Of a DNA stretch of 41,904 bases, positions 11,334 through 39,342 are shown piece after piece (the stretch's first letter is position 1; each line of letters starts with the position of its first letter). The position numbers and the translations under genes are program-made. The notes under the pieces were generated by a model that was not told where the DNA came from, made no database searches, and was given only the letters and a program-made list of their open reading frames with translations. The stretch spans positions 1-41,904 of the IMG/VR virus record IMGVR_UViG_3300034072_000546; one strand, given 5' to 3'. The DNA is from a virus.

Positions 11334-11932
11334 GAGTTCTCGGGCTCGACGTTTCAAAACACGCTGGCTGGGCACTCTGGGAAACCAAGAACGCTCTCGC
11401 GTCGATCCGCTGTGATGTGATGGAGTTCCCGGCAACGGCATCCATCGAATACTGCGCCGACCAGATGGGCCTCAAGGTGACAAAGCTCATCAAGGATGAG
11501 AAGCCGGATTTCATCGTTCTGGAAACCGCTCTCAAGATGAGCCCGAAGGGTTCGGCCGCGACGGTCTCCTCCTGCATGCTGCACGGCGCCGTCTATGCCA
11601 CGCTCGGCAATTGGGGCAAACCCTGGGGAACGATCAGCGCCGCTACCTGGCGCAAGATGTTCTTCGGCGCTGGCTATAAGCCGCCACTCGACAATCACGG
11701 CAAGAACGACTGGAAGCGCGCCGCCATTGAGCAGTGCGAGCTTGAAGGCATCATCCTGCCGGCGAAGAAGTCCACCCGAGACAATGCGGCCGAAGCTGCT
11801 GCACTCGCGGTGTGTTGGCGTGGTGTCGAGATCCACGCGGGCCGGTATCGCCCAGCGTTCCAAGACTTTCTTCAACAGCGCAACGAGCGCGCGCCGTCGG
11901 GCGATCTGTTTGCGGGAGTGGCGCATGAATAA
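11330..11932 (+). CDS. RuvC-like Holliday junction resolvase
   Basis: 200 aa. The RNase H-like nuclease core is visible: Asp7 in VLGLDVSKHAGWAL, Glu65 in FIVLETALK, and Asp151/Glu155 in RDNAAEAAALAVCW, with WRKMFFG and KRAAIEQC in the usual places. RuvC-type enzymes cut four-way junctions symmetrically; in phages they resolve recombination intermediates and branched replication products before packaging. The C-terminal tail is variable. The stop overlaps the helicase-methyltransferase start. Confidence 0.88.
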   Translation: MRVLGLDVSKHAGWALWETKNALASIRCDVMEFPATASIEYCADQMGLKVTKLIKDEKPDFIVLETALKMSPKGSAATVSSCMLHGAVYATLGNWGKPWGTISAATWRKMFFGAGYKPPLDNHGKNDWKRAAIEQCELEGIILPAKKSTRDNAAEAAALAVCWRGVEIHAGRYRPAFQDFLQQRNERAPSGDLFAGVAHE

Positions 11933-14426
11933 CTATCAGGATTTCCTCAAGAACAAGATACGCCTTGCGCCCGTGTCAGGCCTGGAAGTTGAACCCAAAG
12001 AGGTAAACCCGATCCTGAAGCCTCATCAACGCGATATCGTTGTGTGGTCTGTGCGCGGTGGCAAGAGAGCGATATTTGCGGCCTTTGGTCTCGGCAAGTC
12101 GGTAATTCAGATCGAAGTTCTCCGGCTGGTGACAGAGAAGACGGCCGGCCGGGGCCTGATAGTCCTCCCACTCGGCGTTCGTCAGGAATTCCGGCGCGAT
12201 GGTCAGATGCTTGGTGTCGAGATCAAGTTCATTCGCCGTATCGAGGAAGCGGGCGACACTGGTCTCTACATGACCAACTATGAGACGGTCAGGGACGGCA
12301 AGATCGATCCAAACGAATTCACGGCCGTTACGCTGGATGAGGCTTCGGTTCTCAGATCCTACGGCTCCAAGACATATCAAACGTTCCTCTCGCTGTTCGA
12401 TGGCGTGCGGTACCGGTTTGTGGCTACTGCCACACCAAGCCCGAACCGCTACAAGGAGCTTATCCACTACGCCGGTTTCCTCGGCATCATGGACACGGGG
12501 CAGGCTCTTACCCGGTTTTTCCAGCGTGATAGCACCCAGGCCAATAACCTGACGCTTTACCCGCACAAGGAGCGTGAATTCTGGCTGTGGCTCAATTCCT
12601 GGGCAATATTCCTCCAATCGCCCGCCGACCTTGGTCACTCGGCTGAAGGCTACGACCTGCCGCCGTTCAAAGTCATCTATCACGAGGTCCAGTCGAACAT
12701 TGCCGATGGTGGCGTGGATAGAGACGGCCAGTCGGCGCTCTTCCGCGATACGGCCGTTGGCGTCGTTTCAGCTTCCCGCGAGAAACGCGACACCTTAGAT
12801 GCACGCATCGGAAAGATGAGCCAGATACTCGCCGCGGCTCCTGGCGATAATTTCCTTATCTGGCACGACTTGGAAGACGAACGCAGAGCGATCGAGAAAG
12901 CGGTACCAGGCGTAGTGTCGGTATACGGCACTCAGGACCTGGAGAAGCGCGAGCAGGCGATTGTCGATTTCAGCGACGGCAAGTTTCAGCATCTGGCAGC
13001 AAAGCCGGTAATCGCAGGATCCGGCTGCAACTTCCAGCGCCACTGTCACAAGGCAATCTTCTTGGGCATCGGCTTCAAGTTCAATGACTTCATCCAGGCG
13101 CTGCACCGTATCTACCGGTTTCTGCAGGCGCATGAGGTCGAAATCCACATCATCTACGCCGAAAGCGAGCGCGAAGTTTTGCGCACGCTGCAGGCCAAAT
13201 GGGAGGCGCATAAGCACATGGTGCAGAACATGAGCGAGATCATCCGTGAGCATGGCTTGGATAAACTCTCCGCGGCCGATGTTCTTACGAGGTCGATCGG
13301 CGTCGAGCGCATCGAAGCTCGAGGCGAAGGCTGGCAGGTCGCCAACAATGATTGCGTGGAAGAGGCAAAACTGATCGCGGACAACTCCGTCGATATGATC
13401 GTGACCTCCATCCCATTTTCTAACCACTACGAATACACGCCGAGCTACAATGACTTCGGCCACACCGACAGCGACGATCATTTCTTCCAGCAGATGGACT
13501 TTCTAACGCCTGAGCTGTTGCGCATCCTAAAACCCGGCCGTGTCTATGCCTGCCATACGAAAGACCGGATCCTCTTCGGCAATGTCACAGGCATGGGGAT
13601 GCCCACGGTCAACCCCTTTCATGCCCGGACGCTGTTTCACACCATGTCCCACGGGTTTGCCTACATGGGCATGATCACGGTTAACACCGACGTGGTGCGC
13701 GAGAACAACCAGACGTACCGCCTTGGATGGACTGAGAATTGCAAAGACGGCACGAAAATGGGCGTAGGCTCTCCCGAATATATCCTGCTGTTCCGCAAGC
13801 TCCCGTCTGACACTTCCAAGGCCTATGCTGACGACCGGGTAACGAAGGACAAAGAAGACTATACGCGCGCGCGCTGGCAGGTTGACGCGCATGCCTTCTG
13901 GCGATCTTCCGGCGATCGTCTGCCTACACCTGACGAGTTGGCGTCACTCGGGCCGGATATGCTGGCAAAGGCATTCACGGAATGGTCGCTGCAGAACGTC
14001 TACGACTATGAGACGCACATCAAGATCGGTGAAGCGCTGGAAGTCCGCGGCGCGCTGCCATCAACCTTCATGAGCCTGGCGCCAGGAGCGCACGACGCTT
14101 TTACCTGGCACGATGTGAACCGTATGCGCACGCTGAATGGCGATCAGACAAAGAAGGGTCTGGAAAACCACATCTGCCCCCTTCAATTCGATATCGTTGA
14201 TCGGCTTATCAAGCGCTTCTCCAATGAAGGGGAGCTTATTTTCGATCCGTTCGGAGGCCTGTTCACGGTACCGTACCGAGCGCTGAAGCTTCGCCGGCGT
14301 GGCCGGGCGTCAGAATTGAACCCCGGGTATTTCCTCGATGGAATCAAGTACCTGCAGGCGATGGAGCGCGAAGTGTCCACGCCAACCATGTTTGACATCT
14401 TCGATTGCGACGAGGTGGCAGCATGA
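11925..14426 (+). CDS. Superfamily 2 helicase fused to an N4/N6 DNA methyltransferase
   Basis: 833 aa from ATG at 11925 (MNNYQDFLKNKIRLAPVSGL). The N-terminal half is an SF2 helicase: Walker A FGLGKS near residue 53, DEAS near 136, TATPSP near 168, and QALHRIYR (motif VI) near 391. The C-terminal half is an amino-methyltransferase in beta order: catalytic motif IV VTSIPFSNHYEYTPS near 495 and SAM motif FDPFGG near 772, with ELNPGYF after it. Motif IV normally reads [DNS]PP[YFW]; here it is SIPF, one Pro replaced. Such fusions recur in rhizobial phages and may unwind and methylate phage DNA to evade restriction. Overlaps RuvC by eight bases. Confidence 0.88.
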   Translation: MNNYQDFLKNKIRLAPVSGLEVEPKEVNPILKPHQRDIVVWSVRGGKRAIFAAFGLGKSVIQIEVLRLVTEKTAGRGLIVLPLGVRQEFRRDGQMLGVEIKFIRRIEEAGDTGLYMTNYETVRDGKIDPNEFTAVTLDEASVLRSYGSKTYQTFLSLFDGVRYRFVATATPSPNRYKELIHYAGFLGIMDTGQALTRFFQRDSTQANNLTLYPHKEREFWLWLNSWAIFLQSPADLGHSAEGYDLPPFKVIYHEVQSNIADGGVDRDGQSALFRDTAVGVVSASREKRDTLDARIGKMSQILAAAPGDNFLIWHDLEDERRAIEKAVPGVVSVYGTQDLEKREQAIVDFSDGKFQHLAAKPVIAGSGCNFQRHCHKAIFLGIGFKFNDFIQALHRIYRFLQAHEVEIHIIYAESEREVLRTLQAKWEAHKHMVQNMSEIIREHGLDKLSAADVLTRSIGVERIEARGEGWQVANNDCVEEAKLIADNSVDMIVTSIPFSNHYEYTPSYNDFGHTDSDDHFFQQMDFLTPELLRILKPGRVYACHTKDRILFGNVTGMGMPTVNPFHARTLFHTMSHGFAYMGMITVNTDVVRENNQTYRLGWTENCKDGTKMGVGSPEYILLFRKLPSDTSKAYADDRVTKDKEDYTRARWQVDAHAFWRSSGDRLPTPDELASLGPDMLAKAFTEWSLQNVYDYETHIKIGEALEVRGALPSTFMSLAPGAHDAFTWHDVNRMRTLNGDQTKKGLENHICPLQFDIVDRLIKRFSNEGELIFDPFGGLFTVPYRALKLRRRGRASELNPGYFLDGIKYLQAMEREVSTPTMFDIFDCDEVAA

Positions 14427-15871: not shown

Positions 15872-15957
15872 TGGCCCACCCCATCCAATGGAACGGCTCA
15901 AGCACCAGCTTTGGACCGGCGTTTGACGACTGCCGCATGGCGAGGAGGTTGGTGTGA
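15871..15957 (+). CDS. Possible 28-aa peptide
   Basis: ATG at 15871 overlaps the helicase stop (TGATG) and the frame ends with TGA at 15955-15957, which overlaps the methyltransferase ATG. It begins MAHPIQWNGSSTSFGPAFDD. The double coupling suggests it is translated. It may matter mainly as a bridge that delivers ribosomes to the methyltransferase, although that gene has its own GAGGAGG site. Confidence 0.42.
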   Translation: MAHPIQWNGSSTSFGPAFDDCRMARRLV

Positions 15958-17138
15958 TGGAAGTCCTAGACCTTTTCAGTGCCGCGGCCGGTGGCTGGTC
16001 GCTCGGAATGCACAGGGCAGGGTTCAAGACTATTGCCGCTTGCGAAAACGTAGCGTGGCGCCGCGCAATCTATCAGGAGAACAACCCGGATGTCCTTATC
16101 TATGACGATGTCTGCACGCTCACAGCAGATCGAATTATTCGAGATACCGGACGATTCCCATCCGTCGTCGTCGGAAGCCCCCCGTGCCAGGACATCTCCA
16201 GCGCCAACACAAAAGGCAAAGGTGTCGAAGGCGAGCGCAGCGGCCTCTACTTCGAAGCCATCCGCATCATCGGAGAGGGCAGACCTCGTTGGTTCGCTCT
16301 TGAAAACAGCTCTAATCTCCGAACTCGGGGAGCTGACGCCGTCCTCGCTGCGCTGGAGGCACTCGGCTACACCTGCTGGACGTTCGTGGTACGTGCTGGG
16401 GACATCGGAGCCAATCATGAGCGGCCCCGAAGCTGGATCATTGGCTGCGACCTCTCCCAAGTTTCACACGCCGACGGCCATGGGCAATATGCACCATGCT
16501 TCAATGAGCAAATGGGAAAGCTGCATACCTTGGCGCATAGCGCTCGCTACACCCAGGAAGACAGATGCGGATCGGGGCTTTCGGGGAGACGTGCTCGCGC
16601 AACTGCAAGGTCAGAACAATCGCCACGCGGGCATGCTCTCAACGCCGCGAGCATCGGACATGAAGGCGGGCGGCCATGGGGACACGGGCCGGATGGGCAC
16701 GGTGCGGCATCAGTTGCAGGTAGCATCACAGGAAACGCTTCCGACGCCGACCAAGCGGGACAAGCGGATGGATGCATGGTCTCCGGCTTACGACAAGCGG
16801 AAATCGCCAACGATGGATGCGGTTCTGGATGGAGCGATGACCGACAGGGCTTCGGACAAATGGCAGTACGCGAGGGAGATCGCTTCGACCCTGCAACATG
16901 GCGGGCTGACTGGTCCCTCGATGACCTTGCCGCTCACCTACAACTGGATGATGGGCTTTCCACCTGGGTGGCTGGCACGCGCATTGCAGTCGGCGGTCCG
17001 CGCGGGACATCTGCAGCAAGTCTCATCGTTGAAGCGTTCGGAGACGCCGTCGTCCCGCAAATCCCGGAAGCAATAGGCAAAGCCATCTTGCGCACTGAAA
17101 GAGCCTTGGCTGCAATTTATGAAAGGGCGTCGGCATGA
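15957..17138 (+). CDS. DNA (cytosine-5) methyltransferase
   Basis: 393 aa from ATG at 15957, with GAGGAGG upstream. C5 motifs in order: I DLFSAAAGGWSLG, IV GSPPCQDIS (catalytic Cys about 77), VI FALENS, VIII GANHERPRSWIIG, then a long Gly/Ala/Asp-rich variable region (about 165-345) where the target-recognition domain should be, and motif X GDAVVPQIPEAIGKAIL. The enzyme transfers a methyl group from SAM to C5 of cytosine, probably to protect phage DNA from host nucleases. The variable region is read in a second frame by another long gene (16090-17076), which constrains both proteins. Confidence 0.9.
   Translation: MEVLDLFSAAAGGWSLGMHRAGFKTIAACENVAWRRAIYQENNPDVLIYDDVCTLTADRIIRDTGRFPSVVVGSPPCQDISSANTKGKGVEGERSGLYFEAIRIIGEGRPRWFALENSSNLRTRGADAVLAALEALGYTCWTFVVRAGDIGANHERPRSWIIGCDLSQVSHADGHGQYAPCFNEQMGKLHTLAHSARYTQEDRCGSGLSGRRARATARSEQSPRGHALNAASIGHEGGRPWGHGPDGHGAASVAGSITGNASDADQAGQADGCMVSGLRQAEIANDGCGSGWSDDRQGFGQMAVREGDRFDPATWRADWSLDDLAAHLQLDDGLSTWVAGTRIAVGGPRGTSAASLIVEAFGDAVVPQIPEAIGKAILRTERALAAIYERASA
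16090..17076 (+). CDS. Overlapping gene inside the C5 methyltransferase
   Basis: 328 aa in another frame, entirely within the methyltransferase gene. It has its own AGGAGA site nine bases before ATG 16090. The protein is not random: an Ala/Ser/Pro-rich start, then SLLKTALISELGELTPSSLR, ATPAGRSWYVLG, STPRASDMKAGG, LPTPTKRDKRMD and a closing LPLTYNWMMGFPPGWL. The order 'LKT.L..ELGELT...W...ATPAGR.WWVLG ... (W)PTP.A.D ... LNP..VEWLMGFP.GW' is one I recognise from many phage proteins found with C5 methyltransferases. I take it as real and co-evolved. The function is unknown; it may assist or extend the methyltransferase. Confidence 0.65.
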   Translation: MSLSMTMSARSQQIELFEIPDDSHPSSSEAPRARTSPAPTQKAKVSKASAAASTSKPSASSERADLVGSLLKTALISELGELTPSSLRWRHSATPAGRSWYVLGTSEPIMSGPEAGSLAATSPKFHTPTAMGNMHHASMSKWESCIPWRIALATPRKTDADRGFRGDVLAQLQGQNNRHAGMLSTPRASDMKAGGHGDTGRMGTVRHQLQVASQETLPTPTKRDKRMDAWSPAYDKRKSPTMDAVLDGAMTDRASDKWQYAREIASTLQHGGLTGPSMTLPLTYNWMMGFPPGWLARALQSAVRAGHLQQVSSLKRSETPSSRKSRKQ

Positions 17139-31857: not shown

Positions 31858-32253
31858 TCATAGGCCCAGTGCAAACGCGAGACCTTCAGCGAGTTCTTTC
31901 AAATGCTTTTCGCTCAAGAACTCAGAGGGATGGCGTCTGTTATTCCTCAATATAAGGTCGAGACGCGAATGCGAAACAGTTGTCACCATTTTGCATCTCG
32001 CCCATGAATCTTTGGTGAGGCTCCAATATGTACCCTTAGGGATGAATATATCATCCACTCCGGGAGACGCGGGAGGGACAGTCGAAAAGGGGATCACCGT
32101 TGCGGTGCCCGGCGCGAGTGCATGGCGCTGGTTATTGGAAAGGACAGAGACTACCGCAACCTGACGCGTTTTGCGCATCTCAGGGGTAATGTAGGCCAAT
32201 TCAAAGTCGCACATCAGGATGGCACCGCGCTTGGGTGCAAAGGTGATTGCCAT
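31858..32253 (-). CDS. PemK/MazF-like toxin
   Basis: 131 aa. N-terminal KRGAILMCDF is the usual MazF opening strand (RGdI....). Later VAVVSVLSNN, TATVIPFSTVPPASPG, FIPKGTYWSLTKDSWARCKM (TKDSWA like the family's 'l...SyV') and a final helix SEFLSEKHLKELAEGLAFAL. MazF proteins are ribonucleases that cut mRNA at short sequences. It follows a small XRE gene by six bases on the same strand, so the pair may form a toxin-antitoxin unit with an unusual antitoxin. Confidence 0.78.
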   Translation of the reverse strand: MAITFAPKRGAILMCDFELAYITPEMRKTRQVAVVSVLSNNQRHALAPGTATVIPFSTVPPASPGVDDIFIPKGTYWSLTKDSWARCKMVTTVSHSRLDLILRNNRRHPSEFLSEKHLKELAEGLAFALGL

Positions 32254-32259
32254 GCGGGA

Positions 32260-32544
32260 TTAGCCGTTTCCGATGAAGGTGCCGCCCTCGGGCGTAGTGG
32301 ATGGGCTGAGACGGACGCCGGGGCCGCCTGTTGTCGTTTCGCCTTCGGCAAGGAAGATAATGCCTCGTTCCTCAAGAACGCGGATTATGGATGAGATGTT
32401 TTGATAGTTTCCACTAAGCGGGCCAGTTGAACCTTCATACCTCTTGAGGGTCTGAACAGGGACATCTGCGGCCTCGGCCAACGCCCGCTGTTCGATCTTT
32501 AGGAGTGCCCGAGCTGCCCTGAGTTGGTCTGCTGTTATGGTCAT
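32260..32544 (-). CDS. XRE-family regulator, possible antitoxin
   Basis: 94 aa. HTH at the N-terminus: ITADQLRAARALLKIEQRAL, then AEAADVPVQTLKRYEG and a short linker to VLEERGIIFLAEGE and a flexible C-terminus. 'AAR.ll...Q..LA..a.v...tl.r.E...G......i..il...GI.F' is the common single-domain regulator of alphaproteobacterial mobile elements. It lies just upstream of the MazF-like gene and faces ATACCT/AGGTAT operators. Confidence 0.8.
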   Translation of the reverse strand: MTITADQLRAARALLKIEQRALAEAADVPVQTLKRYEGSTGPLSGNYQNISSIIRVLEERGIIFLAEGETTTGGPGVRLSPSTTPEGGTFIGNG

Positions 32545-33136: not shown

Positions 33137-33246
33137 TCCCCGCTGCCATGGGGATGTAACGCGAACACAGAGCTTCATAGGCTCCGGTGTTCGTGAAAGC
33201 GAACCCCTGTGCGTTACCGGGCTTGGCAGGCCGGACGCCTATGGAG
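33137..33246 (+). promoter_or_regulatory. Structured leader upstream of the pentamer-array cassette
   Basis: Nested pairings: TCCCC/GGGGA (33137-33154); GTAACGC/GCGTTAC (33156-33162 with 33211-33217); CGAACAC/GTGTTCG (33162-33168 with 33187-33193, sharing C33162 with the previous stem); GAGC/GCTC inside. An exclusive alternative pairs CATAGGCTCC (33176-33185) with GGACGCCTATG (33233-33243, one bulge), next to the GGAG ribosome site of the 33253 gene. Two competing folds next to a ribosome site are what a translational switch looks like. No known riboswitch class recognised. Confidence 0.45.
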
Positions 33247-33252
33247 ACTGAA

Positions 33253-33918
33253 ATGGCCGTTACGAAAAAAGAGAACGTTGGTATTGAACTGCCGAAGCTG
33301 GATATCCGGCTGATGGAAGTGGCCGTGGTGGGTGACAGCCCGCTTATTGTCCACGCTTGGTCTGAGAAGGCCAAAAAGGAAATGCTCGACAAGCAGATGA
33401 AGAAGGCCAAGCCGGCCAAGGAGGCAAAAGACCCGAAGGCGGATTTTGAGGCTTCGATGTACCGGCTTGCCGATGGCGGTTATGGTTTCCCGAGCGTTGC
33501 ATTCAAGAATGCCGCGGTCACGGCCGGAACCTCCGTCGCCGGTCTGACGAAAATCCAAGCCCGTCAGGCGTTCCACATCTTGGGTGAAGACGCCGACATT
33601 CAGGGAGCGTTCGAAGGCTCCAAGTCTCGCGTCAATCTCGTTCGTATCGAGGGCGGCAAGCCATCCATGCGCGAAGACATGGTTCGGGTTGGCATGGGAA
33701 CGGCAGACCTCCGGTATCGGCCCGAGTTCTCGGAATGGCACGCAAAGCTGCTTGTCCGCTACAACGCCAATGTCCTGAGCGAAAGCCAGATATTGAACCT
33801 GCTCAACGTCGCGGGCTTTGCGGTCGGTGTCGGGGAGTGGCGGCCGGAGAAGGATGGCCAGTACGGCATGTTCCACGTCGCCACCGAAGCCGACATGTCG
33901 AAGCTGGAGGCTGCATAA
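33253..33918 (+). CDS. Conserved phage protein with RAMP/Cas7-like sequence layout
   Basis: 221 aa from ATG at 33253, six bases after GGAG (an in-frame ATG at 33241 contains that site). Order of features: an opening strand LDIRLMEVAVVGDSPLIVHA, a Lys-rich linker with KKAKPAKEAKDP, then GYGFPSVAFKNAAVTAG (compare the RAMP 'iPgsslKgalR'), VNLVRIEGG, REDMVRVG, a strand AKLLVRYNANVLSESQILNL, and a closing VGVGEWRPEKDGQYG, like the Gly-rich loop of RAMP/Cas7 folds. This family, with the same partner gene, recurs in many phages with no assigned function. The Cas7 likeness is my reading of motifs and is unproven. Confidence 0.6.
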   Translation: MAVTKKENVGIELPKLDIRLMEVAVVGDSPLIVHAWSEKAKKEMLDKQMKKAKPAKEAKDPKADFEASMYRLADGGYGFPSVAFKNAAVTAGTSVAGLTKIQARQAFHILGEDADIQGAFEGSKSRVNLVRIEGGKPSMREDMVRVGMGTADLRYRPEFSEWHAKLLVRYNANVLSESQILNLLNVAGFAVGVGEWRPEKDGQYGMFHVATEADMSKLEAA

Positions 33919-34436
33919 TGCGCATCGCTGGCTTTGAATTTGCAGAGGGTGCCCGGTTCCAGCCGGGTGCCGAGAAGAACGCCAAGCTTGTTGGCGAACA
34001 CATCGAAATGTTGCGGGCGAAGTTCAAAGGCGAACTGACTCCGCAGGATGTTCTTGACGACGCGCGCAACAACAACTCGCCGCTCCACTCCTTCTTTGAG
34101 TGGAACGACGGGGAGGCGGCGGAAGCCTATCGCCTCCAGCAGGCGAGGGGACTCATTCGCGCCGTGGTGGCCGTGTATGTCTCTGATGACCGCCCAGCGG
34201 TTCGTCAGAAGGCTTACGTCCACATCGCGGAAAAGGGCGCTCCCCACTACAGGGAAACCAGCCACGCGATGTCGCAGACCAAAACGCGAGAACTTGTTCT
34301 CAAGCGAGCATGGTCGGAGTTGCAGGCGTGGAAGACGCGGTACAAGGATCTGAAGGAGTTCGCGTCCTTCATCGATATCATCGACACGATCGACAAAGAC
34401 TTCCCGAAGTCGCTGGAGAAGGTCGGCAAGCACTAA
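33918..34436 (+). CDS. Helical partner protein of the array cassette
   Basis: 172 aa from ATG at 33918, sharing the TAATG junction with the gene above. Middle part LTPQDVLDDARNNNSPLHSF, FEWNDGEAAEAYRLQQARGL, then a strand AVVAVYVSDDRP and two long helices (TRELVLKRAWSELQAWKTRY, FASFIDIIDTIDKDF). The 'SPLH..FEW(D/N)D..AA..YR..QAR.LIR' signature belongs to a widespread phage family of unknown role. Mostly helical and of the size of Cas11-type small subunits, which is suggestive only. The pentamer array begins about 25 bases after its stop. Confidence 0.7.
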   Translation: MRIAGFEFAEGARFQPGAEKNAKLVGEHIEMLRAKFKGELTPQDVLDDARNNNSPLHSFFEWNDGEAAEAYRLQQARGLIRAVVAVYVSDDRPAVRQKAYVHIAEKGAPHYRETSHAMSQTKTRELVLKRAWSELQAWKTRYKDLKEFASFIDIIDTIDKDFPKSLEKVGKH

Positions 34437-34461
34437 GGCGGAACCGGATGCCCGTTCGGTT

Positions 34462-34695
34462 GGCAAGGATCATGGTAGGGCAGGCTAGGCGCGGCGAGGT
34501 GCGTTGTGGTGCGGTAAGGCTCGGTTTGGCAGGCTAGGTACGGCTAGGTAAGTCGGGGTCTGGTGTGGCTAGGCTGGCAAGGCGAGGTTAGGCCGGGAGA
34601 GGTTAGGCTCGGCTTGGCGGGATTGGGCAGGCTAGGCATGGCGCGGCACGGCGGGGTACGCCGAGGCGCGGCACGGCATGGTCTGGCAACGCAGG
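34462..34695 (+). repeat. Degenerate pentamer array, consensus GGYNN
   Basis: About 234 nt with five-base periodicity. By hand I count about 48 register positions: about 43 have GG, and in all but about two of those the next base is C or T; the last two bases vary freely (CTA, CGC, TGC, TAA, CAC, CAT and others). Steps of four occur about five times and one of seven. Deviant units read GT, GA, GC or CG. The G-rich strand is the coding strand of the upstream gene pair. A terminator follows ten bases later, so it is probably transcribed as an RNA tail or released RNA. It is not a CRISPR and not protein-coding; frames are open only because the repeat lacks stops. Confidence 0.85.
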
Positions 34696-34704
34696 TCAAC
34701 AAAA

Positions 34705-34734
34705 GAGGCGGCTCCGGCCGCCTCAACTGTTTTA
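34705..34734 (+). terminator. Terminator closing the pentamer array
   Basis: GAGGCGGC (34705-34712), loop TCCG, GCCGCCTC (34717-34724), then AACTGTTTTA. A strong 8-bp GC stem with a moderate T-tract. Confidence 0.72.
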
Positions 34735-34744
34735 GGAGATGGAT

Positions 34745-34840
34745 ATGAACGCCGAGACACGAAAAGATGTCCCGATTTTTGACCCGAAGAAGGAAAGCTA
34801 CGAATCCTTCGTGGCTAGGGTCGTCAAACCTTCGAAATAG
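34745..34840 (+). CDS. Possible 31-aa peptide
   Basis: ATG at 34745 has AGGAGA six bases upstream and the frame ends with TAG at 34838-34840: MNAETRKDVPIFDPKKESYE then SFVARVVKPSK. The good ribosome site and protein-like composition support translation. Its end overlaps the minus-strand gene 34824-35132 by 17 bases, so it may be what is left of a longer gene cut off by an insertion. Confidence 0.45.
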   Translation: MNAETRKDVPIFDPKKESYESFVARVVKPSK

Positions 34841-38758: not shown

Positions 38759-39342
38759 GCATTGATCCAGTCGTCGCAGCGCAGATCGAGAAGGGCCGCA
38801 TCGCTCGCCTCGACCTGATCCGCTTCGATCTCCCCGGCAAGACGGTGGGTTATCATCGCGGTGGCCGCCCTTACGTTTACAATGGGCTTACCTATCTGCC
38901 GAACCGGTTTCTGGATATCGGCAGCATGACTTCTGCGGTGGGAACGGCGGTCACGACGCGCACCATTACGTTCTCGGATATTCCGGTTACCGATCCCGAC
39001 GATGCAGTCGCGAAGATCGAGGAGTTTGACTACCAGAACTCCCCGGTCATTATCGCCCACCTTTGCGGCGTGCCGAACACGAATGAGGTTTTGGGCATCC
39101 TCGCATCTTCCATCTATGAGATCGACCAGGTGCGTTACAACAAGGGCGCTGTATCGGGCTCTGAGCGCACGCTGACGATGGAGATCGACCTACAGCCGCC
39201 GGGACGCTCGGCGCGCGGCTCTACCGGCGTCAAGCGCTCGATCGCTGAACAGCAGTTCGACAATAGCCCTACAGACACTGGCCTCGAGTATGTGGCCACC
39301 AACGCCAGCATTCCTGAGGAATGGGGCCAGAGGCAAGGCTGA
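38755..39342 (+). CDS. Minor tail protein (DUF2163-like)
   Basis: 195 aa starting MSIDPVVAAQIEKGRIARLD. Strands LIRFDLPGKTVGYHRGGRPY, then VYNGLTYLPNRFLDIGSMTS, TRTITFSDIPVTDP and a C-terminal TLTMEIDLQPPGRSARG match the 'l.r.dl..g....yh.G...y..ngl.Y.......' layout of baseplate-hub-like proteins around DUF2163 in alphaproteobacterial phages and gene transfer agents. It precedes the peptidase gene, as usual. Confidence 0.78.
   Translation: MSIDPVVAAQIEKGRIARLDLIRFDLPGKTVGYHRGGRPYVYNGLTYLPNRFLDIGSMTSAVGTAVTTRTITFSDIPVTDPDDAVAKIEEFDYQNSPVIIAHLCGVPNTNEVLGILASSIYEIDQVRYNKGAVSGSERTLTMEIDLQPPGRSARGSTGVKRSIAEQQFDNSPTDTGLEYVATNASIPEEWGQRQG

Follow-up and report, generated by a model that had tools for sequence, protein, structure and literature searches.

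VIPR systems were described in 2026 (bioRxiv 2026.04.26.720920, PMC13142463), and a literature search on the VIPR names returned no other on-topic paper. In this description, Vipr is an ancestral phage RAMP protein with vrRNAs of alternating GGY and NN, each tract comprising 9-16 GGY/NN units, and the NN pairs read double-stranded DNA with one target base being skipped (PMC13142463). The array architecture differs among VIPR types, and an invariable 3' tail after each repeat tract has been reported for the SUSP1 and P. fulva clades (PMC13142463). The SUSP1 system belongs to type II, and its repression of a double-stranded DNA reporter has been shown on either strand. The known roles of VIPR include defence and forced prophage induction, and VIPR has been put forward as an ancestor of CRISPR (PMC13142463), an idea that can be tested by independent cases with readable targets.

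The locus reported here is a further instance of this already known kind of system. It lies in a window of 41,904 nucleotides, which is the whole stretch of DNA that was analysed (IMG/VR virus record IMGVR_UViG_3300034072_000546), where it is embedded in the tail module of the phage itself, with the gene for a tail assembly chaperone on one side and that for the tape measure protein on the other. In common with SUSP1 VIPR, it has a Vipr RAMP homologue, an adjoining accessory gene and GGY/NN repeats, and its guides match with a skip of one nucleotide, the skipped base lying at the codon wobble position and the targets in competing phages. However, SUSP1 has separate vrRNAs with their own 3' tails, whereas the guides found here are continuous, tail-less and split by GGCA or GGCT, and a profile of the accessory protein found no match in the SUSP1 stretches searched. 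The DNA of the window is only weakly similar to Sinorhizobium phage phi2LM21 and to a stretch of a Sinorhizobium meliloti plasmid, and a search for close DNA similarity among phages found none. Vipr relatives are present in Rhizobium and other Hyphomicrobiales. These sequence comparisons suggest a host of the order Rhizobiales, and this case, apparently a Rhizobiales phage, is remote from those of E. coli and Pseudomonas that are worked up in the main text of PMC13142463.

TIGR-Tas was considered as another point of comparison. The TIGR-Tas protein belongs to a different fold family and has its own guide-binding domain of the Nop type, and its guides are contiguous spacers. The structural matches listed for the Vipr model, which was not set directly against a Tas structure, were all RAMPs. 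The likeness consists in being phage-borne and RNA-guided with a tandem guide array (PMC12045711), and in needing no PAM (review PMC12385481).

The Vipr protein and its neighbouring genes

The following features make up the locus outside the guide array itself:

33138..33245, + strand: non-coding stretch 5' of vipr, conserved in several close relatives
33253..33918, + strand: vipr gene, encoding a single-domain RAMP, Csm3/Cas7-like, homologue of SUSP1 Vipr (from sequence profile, AlphaFold model and Foldseek)
33918..34436, + strand: accessory gene (vap-like) for a protein of 172 aa, phrog_15946, with a weakly winged-helix-like N-terminal part
34437..34478, + strand: leader directly 5' of the array, nearly identical in the related locus L001 and similar in L064 and L009
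34705..34724, + strand: terminator-like hairpin 3' of the array (fold z -2.77)

The vipr ORF of 221 aa starts with an ATG at 33253 and ends with a TAA stop codon at 33918 on the + strand. The first-pass annotation of this DNA had seen in its product a RAMP/Cas7-like motif layout. This view is supported by an AlphaFold2 model (pLDDT 88.9, pTM 0.83), for which a family alignment of 41 sequences served as input. The best Foldseek match in the PDB was 6xn3_F, from the Lactococcus lactis Csm complex (E 7.0e-6), and all 50 of the 50 chains with E values of 0.001 or less were CRISPR RAMPs (Csm, Cmr, type III-D and type VII). The top chains found with VIA-align 2 were also Csm (9g9g_I, Z 10.9, 151 residues, 3.9 A); the Csm3 crystal structure 5yjd_A gave a Z of 10.8 over 137 residues at 2.8 A, and whole-fold alignments to Csm3 chains span 137-156 residues. 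The RAMP fold of Vipr comprises an RRM core, a G-loop and a thumb, and the comparison with Csm3 chains is one of the fold as a whole. Judged by this model, the protein is a RAMP with a Cas7-type fold, and the structural searches give the confident match to Cas7, Csm3 or Cmr4 that the first-pass annotation had set as its test. The fold is what it shares with the Csm3/Cas7 backbone subunits of type III systems. Unlike these, in the parts examined, it is accompanied by no recognised repeat-spacer array or other cas gene and has no sequence-profile match to Cas7. A sequence-profile search of solved structures gave no Cas7 match, Tandem Repeats Finder detected no CRISPR repeat-spacer array in the window, and Pfam and PHROGs searches with the scanned ORFs, which did not include every ORF, revealed no cas family.

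The segments quoted in the first-pass annotation (PLIVHA, GYGFPSVAFKNAAVTAG, REDMVRVG, DLRYRPEF and VGVGEWRPEKDGQYG) are all present in the ORF and correspond to the most conserved parts of the Vipr family in an alignment of 41 members. The residues that are invariant in this alignment include H34, F79, P80, K85, D152, R154 and R156, as well as G188, G192, G194, R197, G202 and G205, and the Gly-rich GVGEWR segment is conserved across the family. The earlier guess that conserved residues contact RNA fits with the adjacent guide array, but there are no residue-level data on this point.

The protein had also been regarded as not belonging to an annotated family. This is true for Pfam, where the 221-aa protein found no match, and for PHROGs, where it corresponds to phrog_4652 of 'unknown function' (E 4.2e-35), but it no longer applies in the light of the 2026 preprint, as the protein is homologous to SUSP1 Vipr. 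A single-sequence search matched 36pp_D ('SUSP1 Vipr protein') with an E value of 1.7e-5, and a family-profile search of solved structures matched the same chain with an E value of 7.6e-13 over profile positions 16-191 of 195, the remaining 55 rows of that search all having E values of 0.15 or worse. When run on KT454805, the family profile also recovered the vipr gene proven in SUSP1 (E 3.2e-16); a scan for GGYNN repeats beside that gene found three tracts, where the preprint reports four vrRNAs (PMC13142463). Since the protein is a SUSP1 Vipr homologue by sequence, we assign the locus to VIPR. The analysis supplies an annotation for phrog_4652, which is also found in well-studied Mycobacterium and Gordonia phages. 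The first-pass annotation covered the protein alone, and the adjoining repeat array and accessory gene were absent from it.

The accessory gene is co-directional with vipr, its start overlapping the vipr stop codon by one base, and a homologue is present in 56 of the 66 loci with a relative of the Vipr protein that we collected (62 viral contigs and 4 genome contigs). No confident fold match was obtained for the model of the accessory protein (pLDDT 91.3), the best Foldseek E value being 0.12 and the best VIA-align Z being 5.9. Approximately residues 1-115 show many weak matches to winged-helix DNA-binding proteins. These matches are a lead only; they would fit the DNA-binding vap class of PMC13142463. 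In L001, an extra stretch with a small ORF lies between vipr and the accessory gene, and the accessory gene appears to be frame-broken (two tblastn pieces in different frames).

The non-coding stretch 5' of vipr is conserved between the window and L001 to about the same degree as the vipr gene or higher; it was also found in L005, L007 and L064, and more loosely in L004 and L011. Rfam searches were negative, both across the window at gathering scores and around the locus at E values of 1 or less. We examined this stretch as a candidate structured RNA, but its single-sequence fold is unexceptional (z -1.43) and the covariation term of a seven-sequence consensus is only 0.09. Therefore, we do not claim a structured RNA at this position.

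The guide array and its predicted targets

When both strands of the window were scanned for GGYNN repeats, the only tract with a score of at least 10 was a stretch of 207 nt at 34483-34689, which scored 58.5. The maximum scores in simulated sequences were 8.0 (20 Markov copies of the window) and 10.0 (300 copies of the local 280 bases). The array consists of 42 units, 37 of which have an exact GGY, begins 46 bases 3' of the accessory gene and terminates before the hairpin at 34705-34724. Three units of 4 nt (GGCA, GGCT and GGCA) split it into segments of 9, 8, 10 and 12 units:

34479..34482, + strand: GGCA word preceding the first guide
34483..34527, + strand: guide segment 1, nine units, NN = TA GC GA GC GT GC AA TC TT; predicted target, tape measure gene
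34528..34531, + strand: GGCA separator (4-nt unit) between segments 1 and 2
34532..34571, + strand: guide segment 2, eight units, NN = TA AC TA AA GG CT GT TA; predicted target, tail protein gene
34572..34575, + strand: GGCT separator (4-nt unit) between segments 2 and 3
34576..34625, + strand: guide segment 3, ten units, NN = AA GA TA CG GA TA TC TT GG TG; no target found
34626..34629, + strand: GGCA separator (4-nt unit) between segments 3 and 4
34630..34689, + strand: guide segment 4, twelve units, NN = TA AT GC AC GG AC GA GC AC AT CT AA; predicted target, start of the tail terminator gene

With its eight units, segment 2 is one below the reported range of 9-16 units, and segments 1, 3 and 4 are within it. 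A SUSP1-like 3' tail after each segment was not found, the only candidate being the terminal terminator-like hairpin. This is evidence against type II, but not against VIPR overall, because the array architecture varies by type. The form of array seen here may be what is meant by the 'staggered arrays with overlapping vrRNAs' of other types (PMC13142463, fig. S18). Mechanically called ORFs cross the guide array on both strands (34310-34748), which carries a risk of mistaken protein annotation.

To read the targets, NN pairs were joined with one target base skipped per unit (NN-skip-NN), and IMG/VR contigs were searched with the resulting patterns. Three of the four guides match tail genes of related phages, namely genes for a tape measure protein (18/18 bases), a tail protein (16/16) and a tail terminator (22/24). 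The first ten units of segment 4 (20 bases) match exactly in 6 contigs, in all of which the match extends to 22/22 over the first 22 bases and 22/24 over the full length, and the site spans the start codon of one same gene. In L072, this gene encodes a phage tail terminator (PF13554, E 2.4e-28). Segment 1 (18 bases) matches exactly in 4 contigs, three of these matches falling in tape measure genes of related phages and representing two distinct sequences; the fourth, in L070, is in an unrelated gene and probably due to chance. Segment 2 (16 bases) matches exactly in 34 stretches, of which 10 represent one tail-protein gene (YTYNGLVYLPN), and the window homologue of this gene matches phrog_11779 and phrog_2048 'tail protein'. 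The 24 other matches look like background: control patterns of 16 bases matched 21 stretches (dinucleotides in reverse order) and 12 stretches (two-base skip). Five of the six segment-4 contigs are also among the segment-2 matches, and the sixth is matched with one mismatch, while none of them is among the matches of the reverse-order or two-base-skip controls. We judge background to be an insufficient explanation for this convergence.

In the matched tail genes, the skipped bases lie at codon position 3 (wobble), and the segment-1 sites of L068 and L069 differ from each other at skipped bases only. Taken together, the distinct guides of at least 8 units gave 5 exact and 6 one-mismatch matches at a skip of one base in the DNA set examined, 4 of the exact ones by construction. 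The corresponding numbers were 0 and 0 without a skip and 0 and 1 at a skip of two bases; at a skip of three bases there was 1 one-mismatch match, apart from 292 exact matches to own arrays. Three shuffles of the guides gave 1, 0 and 0 matches at 0-1 mismatch. The one-base-skip code is supported here by guides with nameable targets, and these targets lie in tail genes of rivals that have the tail module in common with this phage. For segment 3, target searches under the one-base skip found none, and 2 matches in 394 genomes stood against 2 control matches.

Proposed mechanism and competing readings

We are highly confident that the locus is a VIPR system, although its mode of action is inferred and there are no data from cells. 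Following the model of PMC13142463, the array would be transcribed and Vipr subunits would line up along the RNA, one per 5-nt unit, gripping GGY. Each NN pair would then base-pair with target DNA on its template strand, skipping one target base each time. In mixed infection, or in co-resident prophages, the bound complex would block transcription of the rival's genes for the tape measure protein, the tail protein and the tail terminator. No nuclease domain was recognised in vipr or the accessory gene with Pfam and PHROGs, and repression rather than cutting is therefore expected. The guides have the same sense as the coding strand, which rules out plain antisense pairing with mRNA.

Other readings have to be weighed against this one. 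One is that a G-rich low-complexity or coding repeat without any guide function lies beside vipr, its targets reflecting chance or shared ancestry. In its favour, short G-rich tandem runs do arise by chance, mechanical ORFs cross the tract and searches of the viral collection with 16-base patterns give 12 to 21 background matches. Nevertheless, we can hardly credit it given the score of 58.5 as compared to 10.0 or less in simulations, the recurrence of this architecture, filled with unrelated NN content, in 60 of 66 relatives, and the five contigs shared by two guides but by no control. It is also improbable, though a little less so, that the RAMP protein binds the repeat RNA for some other purpose, such as packaging, regulation of the phage's own tail genes or RNA targeting. 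The position of the locus in the phage's own tail module would agree with such a purpose, as would the fact that three guides match the same kinds of tail genes. However, the guides are exact on the genes of relatives and poor on the phage's own, the best own-genome matches having 5/18, 4/16, 6/20 and 8/24 mismatches for segments 1-4, and the guides have the mRNA sense, with which pairing with mRNA is impossible.

A reading that leaves the mechanism unchanged deserves more weight, namely that a real VIPR system serves mainly to protect the lysogen (superinfection exclusion) or to disturb resident prophages. We regard this as a serious possibility that falls somewhat short of an even chance. 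Both defence and forced prophage induction are known (PMC13142463), and segment-4 sites with 2 mismatches were found in 3 of 394 genomes of the family of a Rhizobium leucaenae genome, the backwards control giving 0. Against this, the guides match late tail genes and not lysogeny switches, so that the blocking of a productive rival fits better than the induction of a prophage.

The copies of the targeted sites that the phage itself carries have diverged. In the tape measure protein, the segment-1 region is replaced in the window version, while both flanks are alike. The homologous own site for segment 2, at 38872, has two codons changed and is one of the two best own matches. Relative to the L073 target it has 4 mismatches, and only 6 of 193 eight-codon windows of that gene differ that much, but relative to L069 there are 2 mismatches, which is not unusual (28 of 193 windows have at least as many). 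The divergence of the segment-2 own site is therefore suggestive only. The vipr gene was found in none of 15 target-hit records (including L070, the probable chance match), whereas 3 of 3 positive controls were detected; many of these records are fragments. With 1-2 mismatches, the third guide of L001 has a site in 13 of 16 records, among them the window phage at 39286 (1 mismatch of 20), though not in the L001 record. Phages whose Vipr proteins are almost identical thus seem to target one another's relatives. Self-avoidance by L001 was also considered as a case of divergence under selection, but no match to the targeted gene exists in the 33-kb L001 record, which therefore provides no evidence of this.

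Relatives, array turnover and the GGCA word

A GGYNN tract with a score of 12 or more is present in 60 of the 66 loci, always on the vipr strand. The six others include L002 and L005, which are too short, and L003 and L007, which have weaker tracts (9.0 and 10.1). L059 (3640-3991) and L060 (3640-4080) carry, as judged by eye, GTT/GGT-NN-like repeats in which GGCA words are retained. These two tracts possibly reflect a drift of the code. L001 and the window have Vipr proteins that are 99% identical and nearly the same 42-base leader, and yet their arrays are unrelated. Near-identical Vipr proteins with unrelated arrays raise the question of how new guides arise without any recognised adaptation gene.

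In 61 distinct arrays, 271 register slips were counted, of which 267 are 4-nt units; 220 are GGCA and 13 are GGCT. For segments 1, 2 and 4 of the window, the target match starts with the unit directly behind a separator, and its end lies in the last one or two units ahead of the following separator or of the array end. We propose that GGCA is the punctuation word of a self-delimiting guide array, in which one transcript carries several guides and the 4-nt unit shifts the register by one, marks the border between one Vipr filament or processed guide and the next, and replaces the 3' tails of SUSP1; we consider this proposal just as apt to fail as to hold. The word is absent from the main text of PMC13142463, a statement that does not extend to the supplement with fig. 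S18. If the proposal is true, some 210 bases of punctuated array would be enough for a phage to carry more than one weapon against the tail module of a single rival.

Among the named relatives, such arrays occur for instance in the Gordonia phages ODay and UmaThurman, Mycobacterium phage Quico and Cyanophage Cy-LDV1. ODay and the window share one gene order, which runs from the tail terminator and tail protein through the tail chaperones and two reverse genes to vipr, the accessory gene and the tape measure gene. In Quico (L177, 2608-2848) and in the Gordonia phages L175 and L176, intact-looking vipr genes and GGCA-split arrays are present, and the genes are annotated as hypothetical proteins. 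Being well-studied laboratory phages, Quico and these Gordonia phages (L175-L177) would be good models for bench work. Pseudomonas phage LESphi2 (L178, 2231-2525) has three separate GGYNN tracts 5' of its Vipr homologue in a SUSP1-like layout, each followed by a non-repeat stretch starting with GGGCTG or similar.

Several other genes of the window were noted in passing. A PemK/MazF-like toxin gene (PF02452, E 9.9e-11) and a neighbouring helix-turn-helix gene (31858-32253 and 32260-32544, - strand) are reversed inside the tail module; of the two reversed genes at the same place in ODay, one is annotated as helix-turn-helix. The ORF at 11595-14426 encodes a protein of 943 aa with matches to DNA helicases and DNA methyltransferases (phrog_16, E 6.5e-132; phrog_67, E 7.6e-25), and a second methyltransferase gene is located at 15954-17138.
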